A stretch of 43,599 nucleotides of DNA. Source: Oscillospiraceae bacterium (GTDB lineage: Bacteria > Bacillota > Clostridia > Oscillospirales > Ruminococcaceae). The stretch is taken from positions 1-43,599 of the forward strand of contig JAFUWN010000004.1 of assembly GCA_017483465.1 (NCBI GenBank), read 5' to 3'. Below, one piece after another: positions 10,840 through 41,820 of the stretch (positions are counted from its first letter, which is position 1; every line of letters begins with the position of its first letter). The notes under the pieces are model-generated. The model did not search any database and was not told the origin of the DNA. It saw only the letters and a list, made by a program, of their open reading frames with translations. The position numbers and the translations under genes were made by a program.

Positions 10840-10867
10840 TTGACATTCCGGAATTTTGTGCTATAAT
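10840..10867 (+). promoter_or_regulatory. Sigma-A promoter of the Ro60/Y-RNA locus
   Basis: TTGACA (10840-10845), 16-base spacer, TATAAT (10862-10867). It lies about 210 bases before the rsr start, so the transcript has a long leader. Confidence 0.8.
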
Positions 10868-10870
10868 AGA

Positions 10871-11050
10871 TATTGTTGAGGAGATGCACCTCAGCAATAC
10901 AGAAGCGACAGTTGTGGAATGTTGTTTCGTTGTGATAGTTCCAAGATTAATATTTGTCAGTGTACGCCGTGATTACTTTAAGACTTTCAGATTTTCAGAA
11001 CAGTTTTTGTATGAATTTTTATTAAAGTAAAATCAGGGCTTCGTTTTTTT
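10871..11050 (+). ncRNA. Structured leader or independent small RNA upstream of rsr
   Basis: Starting four bases after the -10 box, 10871-10881 and 10889-10899 form an 11-bp hairpin with one wobble. A second nested element pairs GCC and TGA plus TTACTTTAA (10966-10981) with TTAAAGTAA, then TCA and GGC (11022-11039), with an AA bulge. The stem is followed after five bases by seven Ts (11044-11050), so termination before rsr is possible. It resembles no riboswitch I know. The outer stem, bulge and inner stem layout recalls the three RNA units after rsr but lacks their motifs. The ORF at 10800-11030 in this stretch is probably not real. Confidence 0.5.
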
Positions 11051-11075
11051 CTCTTTATTCGGACAGGAGGCAAAT

Positions 11076-12722
11076 ATGAGCAGAATTTCCAAAGAAGTTT
11101 CCCTTATGCAGGAAGAAAAAAGACTCAGACGGGAAGAAACTGTCGTCAATTTTATGGGCGGTGATTCTTATCTGATCAATCCGCTCGATACGCTTAAAAT
11201 GATCGCCGCTTCTTCTATTTTCGGAGAGGCTTCTTATTACCGGAATAACGTCCGTGACGGCCGGTTCCGTTTTGATGAAAAATTCAGCGATGAATTCGCT
11301 AAAAAAATTTTCAGACTCTATGACGGAAAGTCTACTACTGAAATCTTCCAGGAGGCCATTGATCAGGCACTCTCCTATGATTTCAGAGGAACGCTGGAAC
11401 TCGCCGCAGAACTCCGGAATATTTACAATATGCGGCTGAATCCGCAGGTGATTATGGTCAGAGCGGCCATGCATCCGGACAGAATCGCTTTCACAAAAAA
11501 AAATCCGAACGAGTTTCACCGGATAAATCAGCTGGTTATGAAACGCCCGGATGAACCTGTCACACAGCTGACATATTATCTGTATCTGTGTGAGGGAAAG
11601 AAAAATAAAATTCCTTCGCTTCTGAAAAGAAGTACTGCTAAAAAGCTTTCTTCTCTGTCGGCATATGCCGTCAATAAATATAAAAATGCAGAGATCGGCA
11701 TGATCAATGCGGTTCGCATTACACATGCAAACAGTAAGGTCATTGACGAGCTTATGAAAACAGGTGCCGTTACGGTTTCCGAACAGGAACAGACCTGGGA
11801 GCAGAAACGCTCTGCTGGGATGGACTGGCGTGAAATCGTCAATACGACCGATATGGGGCACATGGCTATGCTCCGGAATCTCCGGAATATCTTCACAGAA
11901 ATTGAAGATCTTCAATTCTGTATGGGATTTCTGGACAAGCTCAAAGCCGGTGTGCTGACCGGAAAGCAGTTTCCGTTCCGGTATTATTCGGCATATAATG
12001 CCGTAAAAACAGCACACGATCTGCACCACAGAAACGAGATTCTCCAGGCTCTCGAAGAATGTATGGAAATTTCCATACAGAATATGCCGAAGCTCAAAGG
12101 CCGGACAATGTGCCTGTCAGATAATTCCGGTTCTGCATGGGGGTGTATTACTTCTGAGTATGGTACTGTGACAATCGCTGAGATTGATAATCTCTCTGCT
12201 GTGATCGCAGCAAAATGCTCAGAAGAAGGCGAAGTCGGAAAGTTCGGCGACAAGCTGATCAAATTTAATGTCAAAAAACCCGTCCTTCAGCAGACAGAAG
12301 CCATCACAGCAAAAAGAAGCTCCGATGTCGGAGCGGCTACCGAAGGCGGTATCTGGAAATTCTTCCGTGATGCAATTAAAAATAAAATATTCTATGATAA
12401 TATTTTTATCTTCTCCGATCAGCAGGCCGGCACAGGCGGTCTGTACGGAACAGATCAGGATATGAGTGAATATAAGAAAGCAGGCTTTGCCTGCCGCAGC
12501 AGTTATGTCAATGTCTATAAGCTGGTGCTGGACTACCGGAATCAGGTGAATCCGAAAGTCAATGTATTCAGCATTCAGACAGCCGGCTATAACAATATTC
12601 TGCTTCCGCAGATGTCCTATCGGTGTGCAATGCTCACAGGCTGGACGGGAAAAGAAATCCAGTTCGCTGCCGAGTATATCCGTCAGTGGGATGCACTGGA
12701 ACAGAAACAGCTTGAAAATTAA
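11076..12722 (+). CDS. rsr: Ro60 orthologue Rsr: TROVE plus vWA domain RNA-binding protein
   Basis: 548 residues, close to the usual Ro60/Rsr length. Residues 15-330 form the TROVE HEAT-repeat ring, with NFMGGDSYLINPLDTLKMI at the start and VIMVRAAMHP inside. Residues 340-530 form a vWA domain whose MIDAS is LSDNSGS (Asp349, Ser351, Ser353). Ro60 holds misfolded RNAs in its ring and Y RNAs on its outer face. In bacteria it works with PNPase or in rRNA and tRNA processing. AGGAGG stands before the ATG. The Y-like RNA units start seven bases after the stop codon, which strongly supports the assignment. No RtcB ligase or PNPase gene is in the window; the partner here may be the EndoU-type nuclease downstream. 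Confidence 0.93.
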   Translation: MSRISKEVSLMQEEKRLRREETVVNFMGGDSYLINPLDTLKMIAASSIFGEASYYRNNVRDGRFRFDEKFSDEFAKKIFRLYDGKSTTEIFQEAIDQALSYDFRGTLELAAELRNIYNMRLNPQVIMVRAAMHPDRIAFTKKNPNEFHRINQLVMKRPDEPVTQLTYYLYLCEGKKNKIPSLLKRSTAKKLSSLSAYAVNKYKNAEIGMINAVRITHANSKVIDELMKTGAVTVSEQEQTWEQKRSAGMDWREIVNTTDMGHMAMLRNLRNIFTEIEDLQFCMGFLDKLKAGVLTGKQFPFRYYSAYNAVKTAHDLHHRNEILQALEECMEISIQNMPKLKGRTMCLSDNSGSAWGCITSEYGTVTIAEIDNLSAVIAAKCSEEGEVGKFGDKLIKFNVKKPVLQQTEAITAKRSSDVGAATEGGIWKFFRDAIKNKIFYDNIFIFSDQQAGTGGLYGTDQDMSEYKKAGFACRSSYVNVYKLVLDYRNQVNPKVNVFSIQTAGYNNILLPQMSYRCAMLTGWTGKEIQFAAEYIRQWDALEQKQLEN

Positions 12723-12729
12723 ATAAAAT

Positions 12730-12823
12730 GCAGTCATGAAGCAGATTCAGGAGTTACTTCTATTTTGTGATTATGAAAAAATGATTTGATGAAAAACACT
12801 CCTGATAAAATTCTCATGACTGC
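12730..12823 (+). ncRNA. Y-like RNA unit 1
   Basis: The ends pair perfectly over 10 bp (12730-12739 with 12814-12823). After an internal loop containing AGCAGA, an inner 8-bp perfect stem forms (12747-12754 with 12798-12805). Its 5' strand runs into AGTTACTTCTA (12752-12762). The 3' internal loop carries ATTCTCA. Total about 94 nt, the size of a Y RNA. It starts in the rsr 3' UTR without an obvious promoter of its own, so it may be cut from the rsr transcript. Y-RNA identity rests on position next to rsr, the nested-stem shape and recurrence in units 2 and 3; it is inference. Confidence 0.7.
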
Positions 12824-12840
12824 TGTAAAAAAGATTTGCC

Positions 12841-12932
12841 TCCGGTGTGATGCAGAGCGTTACAGTTACTTCTATAGTATTTTGGAACTATATCTGATCT
12901 TTTTACACTGTCGCTGAGATTCTCACACCGGA
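12841..12932 (+). ncRNA. Y-like RNA unit 2
   Basis: The outer stem is 10 bp and perfect (12841-12850 with 12923-12932) but has a different sequence from unit 1, which is covariation-like support. The inner stem is AGCG-(TT bulge)-ACAG (12856-12865) with CTGTCGCT (12908-12915). The apical part has a further hairpin, TATAGT with ACTATA. It shares TGATGCAG after the outer stem, AGTTACTTCTA (12864-12874) and ATTCTCA (12919-12925). About 92 nt. Confidence 0.7.
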
Positions 12933-12948
12933 TTGATAAAATCAATAT

Positions 12949-13280
12949 ACAGTCATGAAGCAGTCATATCAGTTACTTCTAAATCTTGGATATTTATTTT
13001 TAAAAGCGGCTTAGTGAAGTCCGAATGGAAGAAAACCATGTAAAAAAATTGAAAGAATGGACTCAACCATCTTAAAAAAGAGATGTCGCAGAGCATTGAA
13101 AAAACTGCTGCGGAGCGTTCGCATAAAAAAGCAGAATGCAACAGGACATTCTGAAAAACCTGTCATGAGGCCGTTCATGTAAAAAAAAGACACTGGAAAA
13201 TAACCAGGTAAAAAATTAATAATTGAATAAATTTAAATAGTATGTATTGCTGATATAAAAATTCTCATGACTGTTTTTTT
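12949..13280 (+). ncRNA. Y-like RNA unit 3, long form ending in an intrinsic terminator
   Basis: Outer stem ACAGTCATGA (12949-12958) with TCATGACTGT (13265-13274); inner stem ATATCAG (12966-12972) with CTGATAT (13250-13256). It shares TGAAGCAG, AGTTACTTCTA (12971-12981) and ATTCTCA (13261-13267). Between the stems lie about 270 extra bases with many small hairpins: ATGG/CCAT inside AGTCC/GGACT, CATCT/AGATG, CAGAATG/CATTCTG, CATGA/TCATG and CTGG/CCAG. The outer stem runs straight into seven Ts, so this unit ends the transcript. At about 332 nt it is far longer than known Y RNAs. Short ORFs on the opposite strand here look like chance. Confidence 0.65.
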
Positions 13281-13331
13281 ATTGAAAAAAATCTGCTCCA
13301 GCAGAAAATGAAATAACAAGGAGGAAAAATA

Positions 13332-13853
13332 ATGCCCGATGTTAATATTAAAGGAATTACTGATACCCATGGCATTAAAATTGAAAAATTGAAACATATT
13401 TTTCTGGGGTGTGTTGATATTAAAAATAAAAGAATACTAGGCTATCATTGTGATAATGCCGAAGCCAGGGACGATCCGGATGTTTTGTGCAGAGTGGAAA
13501 AGAAAGAAATACTTGAACCCGCAGCGATCCGTTTGAAAGAAAACTGCAATCTGGGGATTGAAAAAGGAACGGTCATGGCAAAACAGCAAGGCGTACTTAT
13601 AAGAGGAGAAAAAGAAATTACAAAATTTTCTACTTTTTTTAATCATAACTGGACAAGACAACAAATTGTTGATGGAATTGCAAAGCTGAAAAAAAGTGCT
13701 CCGGAACAGAAATTAACAGCAGACTATCTGGAAAAAAATCCCCAATACGCTGAACCGGAAAAAAAGACAGGCATTTATGTAATGGATTGTGCAGATCATA
13801 ACGTCATTGTTGTGGACTGCATTTCGTCAACATACCCTATTATAAGAATATAA
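13332..13853 (+). CDS. Stand-alone bacterial EndoU-type ribonuclease
   Basis: 173 residues. Three blocks match the bacterial EndoU pattern. First, LKHIFLGCVDIKNKRILGYH carries His22 and His39, with the spacing of the catalytic His pair. Second, ITKFSTFFNHNWTRQQIVDGI (Lys98, Ser100, Thr101) corresponds to the KxSTFFPxxW block with the catalytic Lys nearby. Third, STYPI sits at the C-terminus. EndoU enzymes cut RNA, often at U, leaving 2',3'-cyclic phosphate. In bacteria the domain is usually the C-terminal toxin of large contact-dependent effectors. Here it has no secretion or toxin-delivery part and follows the Y-like RNAs by 51 bases with a strong AAGGAGG. A role in processing Ro60/Y-bound RNA, or as a toxin with the next gene as partner, is inference. 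Confidence 0.7.
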   Translation: MPDVNIKGITDTHGIKIEKLKHIFLGCVDIKNKRILGYHCDNAEARDDPDVLCRVEKKEILEPAAIRLKENCNLGIEKGTVMAKQQGVLIRGEKEITKFSTFFNHNWTRQQIVDGIAKLKKSAPEQKLTADYLEKNPQYAEPEKKTGIYVMDCADHNVIVVDCISSTYPIIRI

Positions 13854-13869
13854 AAAGGAAAGATGAGAT

Positions 13870-14781
13870 ATGGAAAATTTTAGCTATGAAGTGTGGTATA
13901 TTAATCATAATAATAACAGAATGTTTTTCTCAAAAGAGAATACTTCAGCTAAAAAAAATAATCAGCTGCTGATGATGTGTTCCGGAGAAAATGCTTCTCC
14001 GGAAGAAAAAGCAATCGCACAGGCATTCTCTTACGATATCCGTGGCGAGTACGGAAATTTGATTCTTGAGGCTAGAAAAAAGAAATCGGAACAGAATTCC
14101 AGTGAACCGTTTGTCTGGCAGGGAAATCTTTTCTGCATTACCATTGAAAAGAACGAAGTTATTTTTGAAAGACCGGAACTGAAAAAAACGGGCTTCAAAG
14201 CTTTTGTGCCGCCCGGTGCTAAGATGAAAACAGAAAATCCGGAAGAAATAATAGAAATTAAAGTTCCTACTTTTTTTAAAGAAAGATGTGAAATTGTCTT
14301 TAAAGAAGCAGCTCGGATTAATATTGAAACATGGCTGGAGATTCTGTCAGAATGGAAAAAATTTTATCTTGAAAATCTGGGATTTAATTTATATCCTCTT
14401 GCCTGTGACAGCCATTTTTTCGGAGTTCTGATTATGATTAATGAGAGAATTGTCCGCCCGTCAGAGGAAATTTCAGATGACAGCATCAGAACAGCAATGC
14501 AGGAATGTGCTTCAAGATATGGTCTCACAGCCGATACCATAGGAAAACATTGCAAAAAAGCTCTTGCGAAATATATTCCTGAATCGGCCTGGGGTACAGA
14601 CAGAAAAACAATGCCTGTCAACCTGGTTTATGATTTTATCAGAACATTCTTTTCCGGTGCAGATTCCGGAAAAATCAGTTCAGATAACCCTGTAATTGTA
14701 AAGGCTGTGGAAACTTATCTTTCTGAAAAAGAAGTCCGTAAAAACTGTTTTGCTTATCTTTTCGGCTTTGAATGGCTTTAA
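13870..14781 (+). CDS. Unknown 303-residue protein, partner of the EndoU gene
   Basis: Starts 16 bases after the EndoU stop with an AAAGGAAAG site, so the two are almost certainly co-transcribed. The protein is soluble, with alternating beta-like (FVWQGNLFCITIEKNEVIFE) and helical segments, and a C-terminal helical region (RTAMQECASRYGLTADTIG, AVETYLSEKEVRKN, YLFGFEWL). It has no membrane segment or signal peptide and I recognise no family. Position suggests an immunity protein, an inhibitor or an RNA-binding partner. A terminator follows immediately. Confidence 0.6.
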   Translation: MENFSYEVWYINHNNNRMFFSKENTSAKKNNQLLMMCSGENASPEEKAIAQAFSYDIRGEYGNLILEARKKKSEQNSSEPFVWQGNLFCITIEKNEVIFERPELKKTGFKAFVPPGAKMKTENPEEIIEIKVPTFFKERCEIVFKEAARINIETWLEILSEWKKFYLENLGFNLYPLACDSHFFGVLIMINERIVRPSEEISDDSIRTAMQECASRYGLTADTIGKHCKKALAKYIPESAWGTDRKTMPVNLVYDFIRTFFSGADSGKISSDNPVIVKAVETYLSEKEVRKNCFAYLFGFEWL

Positions 14782-14783
14782 TC

Positions 14784-14811
14784 AAAATCCCTGCTCCGGC
14801 AGGGATTTTTA
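14784..14811 (+). terminator. Intrinsic terminator closing the Ro60/EndoU locus
   Basis: AAAATCCCTGC (14784-14794) pairs perfectly with GCAGGGATTTT around a TCCG loop and ends in Ts. Confidence 0.9.
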
Positions 14812-40559: not shown

Positions 40560-40706
40560 GATTCTTGTATTGTATGTCCTTATCGGATCATATAACCGGA
40601 ACAACAAAATACCACCTGTCGCTCTAAAAGAGAATTGAAGCCCTCACGGGACATTCTTGCTGTTTCACCGTGTATGCTTTCACGGCTTTCACCGCTACTC
40701 ATAAGT
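40560..40706 (-). other. Probable TnpB 3' end and guide-RNA remnant
   Basis: After the TnpB stop the minus strand carries short stems, including CCGTG/CACGG around 40670-40687, and CCCGTGAGGGCTTCAATTC. In IS200/IS605 elements this place encodes the omega RNA and the right end. Identification is by position only. Confidence 0.35.
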
Positions 40707-41820
40707 TCAAGTACACTCCACAGCCGTAGATTCCCGCCTGACCGGCGGTAATTGTATTTTCTGATTATCCTGTTGTGTATATGAGCATATCTCTCAGATT
40801 ATAGCTTGCGTTCAAAGACCTGTCCCCGGAATAACCGCACGAACACTTGAACTTATCAGAAGAAATAGAAGTGCTCCTATTCAGCTTTCCACATGAACTG
40901 CAAATACTCGCTGAGCGGAAGCTTTTTTCTGCTATATCCGAAATAGTGATATCAAAGATGGCTTGGTTTTCACTATCTCTGCTATTGTCTGGTCGATATA
41001 ATTGTCACGGATATTGCTGATCTTGCGGTATATCCGCTGTAGCTTCAGCTTTTGCTTTTCAATGTTTCTGCCCAGCGTTGCACCGCTGTGCTTTTCATTT
41101 TCCAGTTTCCTTGAAAACCGTCTATGCTCACGGCACAGCCGCTTTTCAAGCTTTCTGACCGCTTCGGTCTTGTTGATATTCTCATAACTGACTCCCGTAC
41201 TTGTAAGAGCCAACTCACGGATACCGGGGTGAAGCCCAATACCGTCCGTCATATCGGTGGTAACAGGTTCGGTATCCTCTTGTGTATCAAGCAGAACGGA
41301 AACAAAGCAACGCCCTGCACGTTTGGAGATCCTGCCGCTTTTTACCCATACTCCCGAAGCTGTTGTCGGTATGTAGCCCTTTTCTTTAAGCCACACCCAG
41401 CCGAGAGGCGGGATTTTGAGCCTGTGCCGTTCACATTCGCAGTCACAGCTGCCCTTCCTGTAAAAATACATCTTCACATCGGAGTCCTTTTTCTTTTTGA
41501 ATTGCGGAAATCCGCCTTTCTTCTTAAAGAACTTCTGAAATGCGTGATCGGCATCGTCAATACTGCACTTGACAGCACTGGTGTTTACATCTTTTATCCA
41601 CATATATTCAGGATTGTTTGGCAGAAAATCATGATTCATCCACACGTTGAAAGCATGACCTCTCATGAACGGCTCACCGTTATCGTACCATTCCTTGTTC
41701 TGTGAACTTGTTCTGTGAGATAAACAGATTGTAGATAAATCTGCATACGCCTATTGTTTTGTTGATTTTTATGATCTGTTCAGGTGTTGGGTCTATTTCG
41801 ACTTTATAGCTCCTGTACAT
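40707..41820 (-). pseudogene. tnpB: IS200/IS605-type TnpB (RNA-guided nuclease), broken in at least two places
   Basis: The ATG at 41820 (AGGTGAGGCG upstream) reads MYRSYKVEIDPTPEQIIKINK and breaks by frameshift at about 41690. The main piece runs to 40932 (EWYDNGEPF, GGFPQFKKKKDSD, KRAGRCFVSVLL). It breaks again after KTKPSLI; the zinc finger and RuvC-III (CSSCGKLNRS, CSCGYSGDRSLNAS) lie in another frame. At RuvC-I the family has GIDLGI but here the sequence is GIGLHPGIREL, so the catalytic Asp is lost, and the RuvC-II Glu lies in the deleted part. No TnpA is nearby. The protein cannot cut DNA. Confidence 0.85.

Follow-up and report, generated by a model that had tools for sequence, protein, structure and literature searches.

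Layout of the rsr locus

The stretch of DNA analysed here, called the window in the following, comprises 43,599 nucleotides of contig JAFUWN010000004.1 (assembly GCA_017483465.1) from a Ruminococcus-like Oscillospiraceae bacterium and contains, between positions 10,840 and 14,811, a locus built around rsr, the gene for a bacterial Ro60 protein. On the plus strand, to which all window coordinates refer unless stated otherwise, a promoter, a leader spanning roughly 200 nt, rsr, three structured RNA units, an open reading frame (ORF) of 173 amino acids (aa), an ORF of 303 aa and a terminator follow one another. A preliminary description made from the sequence alone had listed a Ro60 gene, three RNA units, an EndoU-type ORF, a partner ORF and a terminator, all of which were found to be present; the conserved leader and a degenerate hairpin downstream of the RNA units are additional to that list.

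In a search of 150 relatives, a match to rsr was obtained in ten genomes and was close in eight of them (78-100% identity, the genome of the window included). The sigma-70 promoter of the rsr transcript (10840-10867, TTGACA-16 nt-TATAAT) showed 12 of 12 consensus matches and aligned across all eight close-rsr genomes, which agrees with the single promoter proposed before. The closing terminator was likewise found: an intrinsic terminator with an 11-pair stem and a T tail (14784-14809) ends the operon in this genome and aligned with the terminator that follows the RNA array in the nearest relative (L003). A degenerate copy of the array terminator hairpin, which also aligned to the L003 terminator, lies between the array and the EndoU gene (13292-13305). 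Since this left copy carries no T-run on the plus strand, transcription could pass through it; it was called terminator-like on the other strand only, and no forward terminator-like site was found between the end of the array and the EndoU gene.

The Rsr protein and its leader

The rsr gene (11076-12722) encodes a protein of 548 aa. The TROVE profile was matched with 28 bits against a cut-off of 23, PHROG 850 (RNA-binding protein) was matched over residues 17-533 with an E-value of 6e-42, and phmmer matches were obtained to the solved TROVE proteins 9l5y and 9kop with an E-value of 7e-9, which bears out the earlier Ro60 call. BLASTP against a distant Rsr of the same genus gave 26% identity over 456 columns (E 2e-27). 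Both proteins aligned in a DxSxS stretch, the metal-site motif of vWA domains, and the C-terminus of Rsr is presumably vWA-like. Judged by these comparisons, Rsr is a divergent yet full-length Ro60.

The 5' leader (10874-11078) is conserved, and an alignment of eight sequences gave a consensus fold of 25 pairs, of which ten showed changes on both sides. One predicted helix of nine pairs is formed between part of the leader and a stretch that runs from the end of the ribosome-binding site into the start codon of rsr, of which the first two bases are included. Among the nine pairs, three were invariant, one showed a double change and three were broken in one genome (L009). No match to the leader was found in Rfam. 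From the modelled fold, the leader may mask the ribosome-binding site of rsr; control of translation is put forward as a proposal, and the leader is regarded as a candidate autoregulatory RNA.

Three Y RNA units downstream of rsr

In all eight close-rsr genomes, an array of two to four RNA units, which fall into the classes A, B and C, directly follows the rsr stop codon. The array of the window comprises three units with boundaries set by predicted stems. Unit 1 (12730-12823), short and in the class A position, begins seven bases past the stop codon and was matched with 48.8 bits by R1, a covariance model built from class B. Unit 2 (12841-12932) is a short class B unit, which occurs once per genome in eight of eight genomes. 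Unit 3 (12949-13274) is a long class C unit, agrees with all other units in its anchors and stem, was included in alignment A4 and contains six small hairpins with a run of A behind each. The three structured RNAs reported before, seven bases after the stop, correspond to these stems, and their outer-stem pairing exceeds that of shuffled sequences, as shown by the following comparison.

For a set of 42 units, the outer stem of nine base pairs was evaluated in 28 distinct arm pairs, and 234 of 252 cells paired, compared to a mean of 173.9 and a maximum of 199 in 2000 shuffles. Sliding the stem by one or two positions dropped the pairing to 57-83 of 196-224. The set combines 22 rsr-linked units found by position with 20 units from a second site found with R1, which favours paired stems, and the anchors that served to delimit the units determine the two innermost stem pairs and part of the internal loop. 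These values were also obtained for parts of the data. The seven stem pairs free of anchors showed 178 of 196 paired cells (shuffle maximum 140), and the 22 rsr-linked units alone showed 82 of 91 pairs (shuffle maximum 75). The internal loop reads TGCAG in 36 and AGCAG in 6 of the 42 units and faces ATTC in 38, and TACTTC forms the centre of 40 units. Not included in the set are the units next to distant rsr genes and those at the second site in G029, G037 and G035, and a further unit-like stretch in L009 that contains no TACTTC was not counted.

The three classes differ in the region enclosed by this stem. Class B units share 17 consensus pairs, six of them with changes on both sides. The class A units of four genomes (L004, L005, L008, L009) carry an extra hairpin domain, which unit 1 of the window does not have. 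For class C, the six elements of unit 3 were reached by none of 200 shuffles, and the same was found for the counts of three to seven elements in the window and L003-L006; L007 contains two elements (reached by 3 of 200 shuffles) and L008 contains one (35 of 200, not significant), under a hairpin-plus-A rule that was defined after the pattern had been seen. Counted by eye, 23 of 27 class C hairpins carry GGA on the 5' side, as do most of the hairpins in 12949-13274 and in the class C units of L003-L006; a CsrA-like protein would be a conceivable partner. No T-arm motif was found in the window units: GGTTC is absent from 12730-13274 and ARAGORN reported no tRNA there. The three units lack the tRNA-like module (T-arm, D-arm) of YrlA-type Y RNAs.

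The genes around the array vary. A neighbourhood of HGSNAT, rsr, array and cbiQ is common to four genomes (window, L003, L004, L009), while none of the HGSNAT/cbiQ neighbours was found in the covered stretches of L005/L006 and L007/L008, where other genes lie downstream. Because the neighbours differ among the genomes, promoter, leader, rsr and array form a constant set in apparently three different chromosomal positions.

Occurrence of related RNAs beside other rsr genes

Model R1 detected RNAs beside seven of nine distant rsr genes, with E-values from 4.5e-5 to 0.012. A second model, R2, was built from tRNA-like (tRNA-mimic) units contributed by five genomes (G000, the genome of the window, and G008, G018, G020 and G027). 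R2 matched at seven of seven class-level rsr loci and at L022, while L023 was not reported (E 0.18), and it also matched all eight class B units with 42-58 bits, among them unit 2 of the window with 55.7 bits. The class-level loci carry GGTTCGA beside the common TTACTTC motif, which agrees with the tRNA-mimic description given in PMC8394870. Two weak R1 matches (G035:C106 and G023:C15) were located within open frames and discounted as chance hits. At the distant rsr locus L023 of genome G035, CRISPR-like repeats were noticed by eye at 1000-1330, directly upstream of rsr and its Y RNAs.

When 38 genomes of the genus were searched, R2 matched in eleven, namely in all ten with rsr and in G020. 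Y RNAs were accordingly detected in every one of the 10 rsr-positive genomes and in 1 of the 28 rsr-negative ones (Fisher p 2.3e-8). Without the five genomes that provided units for R2, the numbers were 6 of 6 and 0 of 27 (p 9e-7). No Rfam family matched the units at its gathering score, and no Y RNA family was given.

Altogether, the units lie beside rsr and co-occur with it, possess a basal stem formed by the paired 5' and 3' ends and are homologous to RNAs at other rsr genes, as is characteristic of bacterial Y RNAs. The Y-like reading made at the outset is strengthened by the conservation, the covariation, the co-occurrence and the models that link the units to tRNA-mimic Y RNAs, and by every available sequence test the units are assigned to the Y RNAs.

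A second Y RNA site at the S10 gene

R1 also matched a site unlinked to rsr, on contig C83 of the genome of the window and in other genomes. In the former, four tandem Y RNAs (locus L070, G000:C83:3499-4052, minus strand) with promoter-like sequence ahead of them precede the gene for ribosomal protein S10. The second-site arrays comprise two to four units, lie downstream of a common gene set and are syntenic across genomes of the genus. The S10 gene follows the array in G000, G008, G014, G018, G027 and G037, identified by Pfam in two genomes and by nearly identical protein starts in the others, and the contigs of G020 and G029 end earlier. Judged by pattern, a T-arm-like motif was present in 19 and a D-arm-like motif in 10 of 20 second-site units. 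All four units of L070 carry the T-arm-like motif (one degenerate), and the fourth is short and has no D-arm motif. Since four units at the S10 site add to the three rsr-linked ones, the genome of the window contains seven Y RNAs. This second array lies beyond what the preliminary description saw, and in the literature searches made no title or abstract opening describes a Y RNA array at S10, a 2014 survey of bacterial Y RNAs being outside this scope. In G035, a single tRNA-like Y RNA matched by R2 (G035:C68:42037-42179), with promoter-like sequence, lies away from both rsr and the S10 site before a different gene.

The EndoU-type protein and its neighbour

The 173-aa ORF (13332-13853) encodes a stand-alone EndoU-type ribonuclease. 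Its blocks HIF-G...GYH-DN, STFF-W and YP aligned with three members that score about 90 bits each (L047-L049), with His22 and His39 in register, while the other five domains in the alignment spell the blocks differently. The order of blocks known from EndoU was found, with two His blocks, a Ser/Thr-Phe-Phe block and a C-terminal Tyr-Pro block. The motif residues would presumably be His22, His39, Lys94 or Lys98 (the lysine placed by eye), Ser100/Thr101 and Tyr168. The score for the Pfam family PF14436 was 21.4 bits (E 3.4e-4) and did not reach the curated cut-off of 25.3. The earlier EndoU call consequently stands with regard to the motif blocks and falls short of the curated Pfam score; the protein is taken as a family member with predicted RNase activity. 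The match starts at residue 21 of 173, and no N-terminal delivery domain as in polymorphic toxins was found.

The 303-aa ORF (13870-14781) encodes an orphan protein, which is by position a candidate immunity or antitoxin partner. No convincing family was found for it in Pfam, NCBIfam, PADLOC or PHROGs, and no relatives in 297 genomes of the family and 391 of the class, apart from one weak match in G408 (E 0.004) in a frame broken by three stops, which was set aside. A stretch of 14 residues common to this protein and Rsr (E 0.01) was judged to be chance. Searches of plasmids, phages, genomes and viral contigs, the last of which reached close relatives only, gave nothing convincing for either protein.

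Regarding the distribution of the pair, a protein search among the 150 relatives found EndoU in a single genome, that of the window. Neither gene was found by tblastn in the other seven rsr-array loci (in L006 only about 390 bases past the array were covered), so that EndoU is present in one of eight arrays and in one of the four loci with HGSNAT-rsr-array-cbiQ. PF14436 was not found in the nine other rsr-positive genomes of the genus, nor near rsr in seven class-level TROVE genomes; since even the EndoU of the window falls below the threshold of this family search, distant EndoUs could have escaped it. EndoU and rsr are both present about 62 kb apart on one contig of G766, and in G708 an EndoU below the cut-off lies about 870 kb from rsr on the same contig. 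In the nearest relative, L003, array, terminator and cbiQ follow one another uninterrupted, which represents an empty site. In the window, the sequence at either end of the insert corresponds to this terminator stretch of L003, and a search for flanking repeats revealed no transposon-like ends. Elsewhere in the window, a RAGATH-18 RNA was matched at 40657-40724 on the minus strand with 56.2 bits, above the Rfam gathering score.

Interpretation of the locus

The observations are best explained by a Ro60-Y RNA operon core, further Y RNAs at the S10 site and an EndoU pair that joined the operon as a strain-specific cassette, an explanation to which we assign a probability of about 80%. The core operon would consist of the promoter, the conserved leader, rsr and the 3' Y RNA array, and the Y RNAs would probably be released from the rsr transcript by cleavage. 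According to PMC4726728 and PMC8394870, Rsr binds Y RNAs at their lower stem and is tethered to PNPase by a Y RNA; given this published binding, the stem in the window should serve the same end. Rsr should thus grip each RNA at its basal stem, with the internal loop UGCAG or AGCAG usually facing AUUC, and the middle of the RNA would be left free as a tether or as a gate for another factor. By analogy with YrlA, the four S10-site Y RNAs with their T-arm-like motifs are likely PNPase tethers. The rsr-linked units, whose modules are of other types (a short hairpin in some, hairpins strung together by A-rich linkers in others), may have different binding partners. The EndoU gene and its neighbour would have been inserted at the array terminator and would now be transcribed from the rsr promoter. 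As a strain-specific element, the pair probably represents an orphan toxin-immunity cassette; our best guess, which the preliminary description had named as an option, is an RNase toxin with the 303-aa protein as its keeper, acting as an inhibitor.

Several observations weigh against this explanation. Unit 3 was reported by neither R1 nor R2 and owes its assignment to anchors, stem and alignment. R1 gave an E-value of only 0.2 for the distant locus L031, and L035 was not reported. In G020 (77% complete) second-site Y RNAs are present and rsr was not detected, and in G025 (72% complete) rsr is present and a second-site array was not detected. A weak promoter-like site at 13282-13309 shows 9 of 12 consensus matches, as expected by chance for such sites, and EndoU may possess its own promoter there. 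In addition to its score below the Pfam cut-off, the EndoU protein was missed at genome level, and the 303-aa protein belongs to no recognisable family, its inhibitor role being proposed from its position.

In one option of the preliminary description, Rsr, Y RNAs and EndoU were seen as parts of one machine, in which EndoU would cut the Y RNAs or Rsr-bound RNA. Such a machine would fit with the common strand, with a ribosome-binding site ahead of EndoU and with the lack of any forward terminator-like signal in the interval from the array to EndoU, yet neither gene of the pair occurs in the seven other rsr-array loci and the nearest relative has an empty site. In the proposed check for EndoU near rsr among 17 TROVE-bearing genomes, the window's was the only one to show it; for the 16 others (0 of 16), the result comes from a family search that also misses the EndoU of the window. 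Since EndoU is found in one of eight arrays and the site is empty in the nearest relative, a fixed Ro60-Y-EndoU system is unlikely, and the functional link to Ro60 and the Y RNAs is regarded as improbable. Some EndoU toxins cut tRNA (PMC9086364), and inhibition of a nuclease has been suggested for a tRNA-like Y RNA (PMC7790460), so that a benefit of landing beside Ro60 is conceivable; the link is most likely accidental. In the literature searches made, no title or abstract opening describes a Ro60-EndoU locus.

The order of RNA array, weak hairpin and RNase gene also resembles type III toxin-antitoxin loci, with the array RNA as antitoxin of the EndoU protein. Contrary to such systems, the repeats do not travel with the toxin, as the arrays of seven of eight loci are without the nuclease; moreover, the units have the Y RNA stem in common and no ToxN-like family was matched, which makes this the most remote of the explanations considered. 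That the pair is inactive debris in the course of being lost could account for a single orphan copy in one genome only. Both frames are nevertheless open with a start and a ribosome-binding site and are followed by a terminator, and the motif residues are retained, hence this origin is doubtful as well. The inserted cassette beside a conserved Ro60-Y RNA core is therefore preferred.

In the current view, the Y RNA directs the action of bacterial Ro60, and not many designs of bacterial Y RNAs are known to have been investigated. With two separate Y RNA sets that combine one type of Rsr stem with different middle modules, the question of Y RNA tethering becomes directly testable in one genome. 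As a tentative and still rather speculative extension, Ro60 could act here as an adaptor programmed by seven Y RNAs that are encoded at two unlinked loci, where the four tRNA-like RNAs beside the S10 gene serve one partner and the rsr-linked RNAs with new modules, above all the beads-on-a-string RNA with its GGA-bearing hairpins and A-runs, serve another, which would be new to Ro60 biology. The comparison of genomes further marks the eye-catching EndoU link as most likely an insertion, which spares a false lead. A role of Ro60 from commensal bacteria in triggering lupus autoimmunity has also been discussed (PMC8394870).

Comparison with known systems

The EndoU toxin CdiA-CT STECO31 (PMC9086364) shares with the 173-aa protein the EndoU-type motif blocks with two His, and a tRNA target is possible for the latter. 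The protein of the window differs in being a stand-alone protein of 173 aa without a delivery part and in having a 303-aa orphan as its neighbour.

The Salmonella locus rsr-yrlBA-rtcBA represents YrlA-type Y RNAs with Rsr (PMC7790460, PMC8394870). Unlike YrlA, the window units contain no T-arm motif and form an array of three located 3' of rsr, while the tRNA-like units reside at an unlinked site. As in YrlA, the RNAs adjoin rsr and their paired 5' and 3' ends form a predicted Rsr-binding stem; T-arm-like and D-arm-like motifs likewise occur in 19 and 10, respectively, of the 20 second-site units.

Compared to RYPER, the complex of Rsr, Y RNA and PNPase from Deinococcus radiodurans (PMC4726728), the middle region of class C differs from the tRNA-like tether. 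The expected mode of action is nonetheless that of RYPER, with the Y RNA serving Rsr as both tether and gate.

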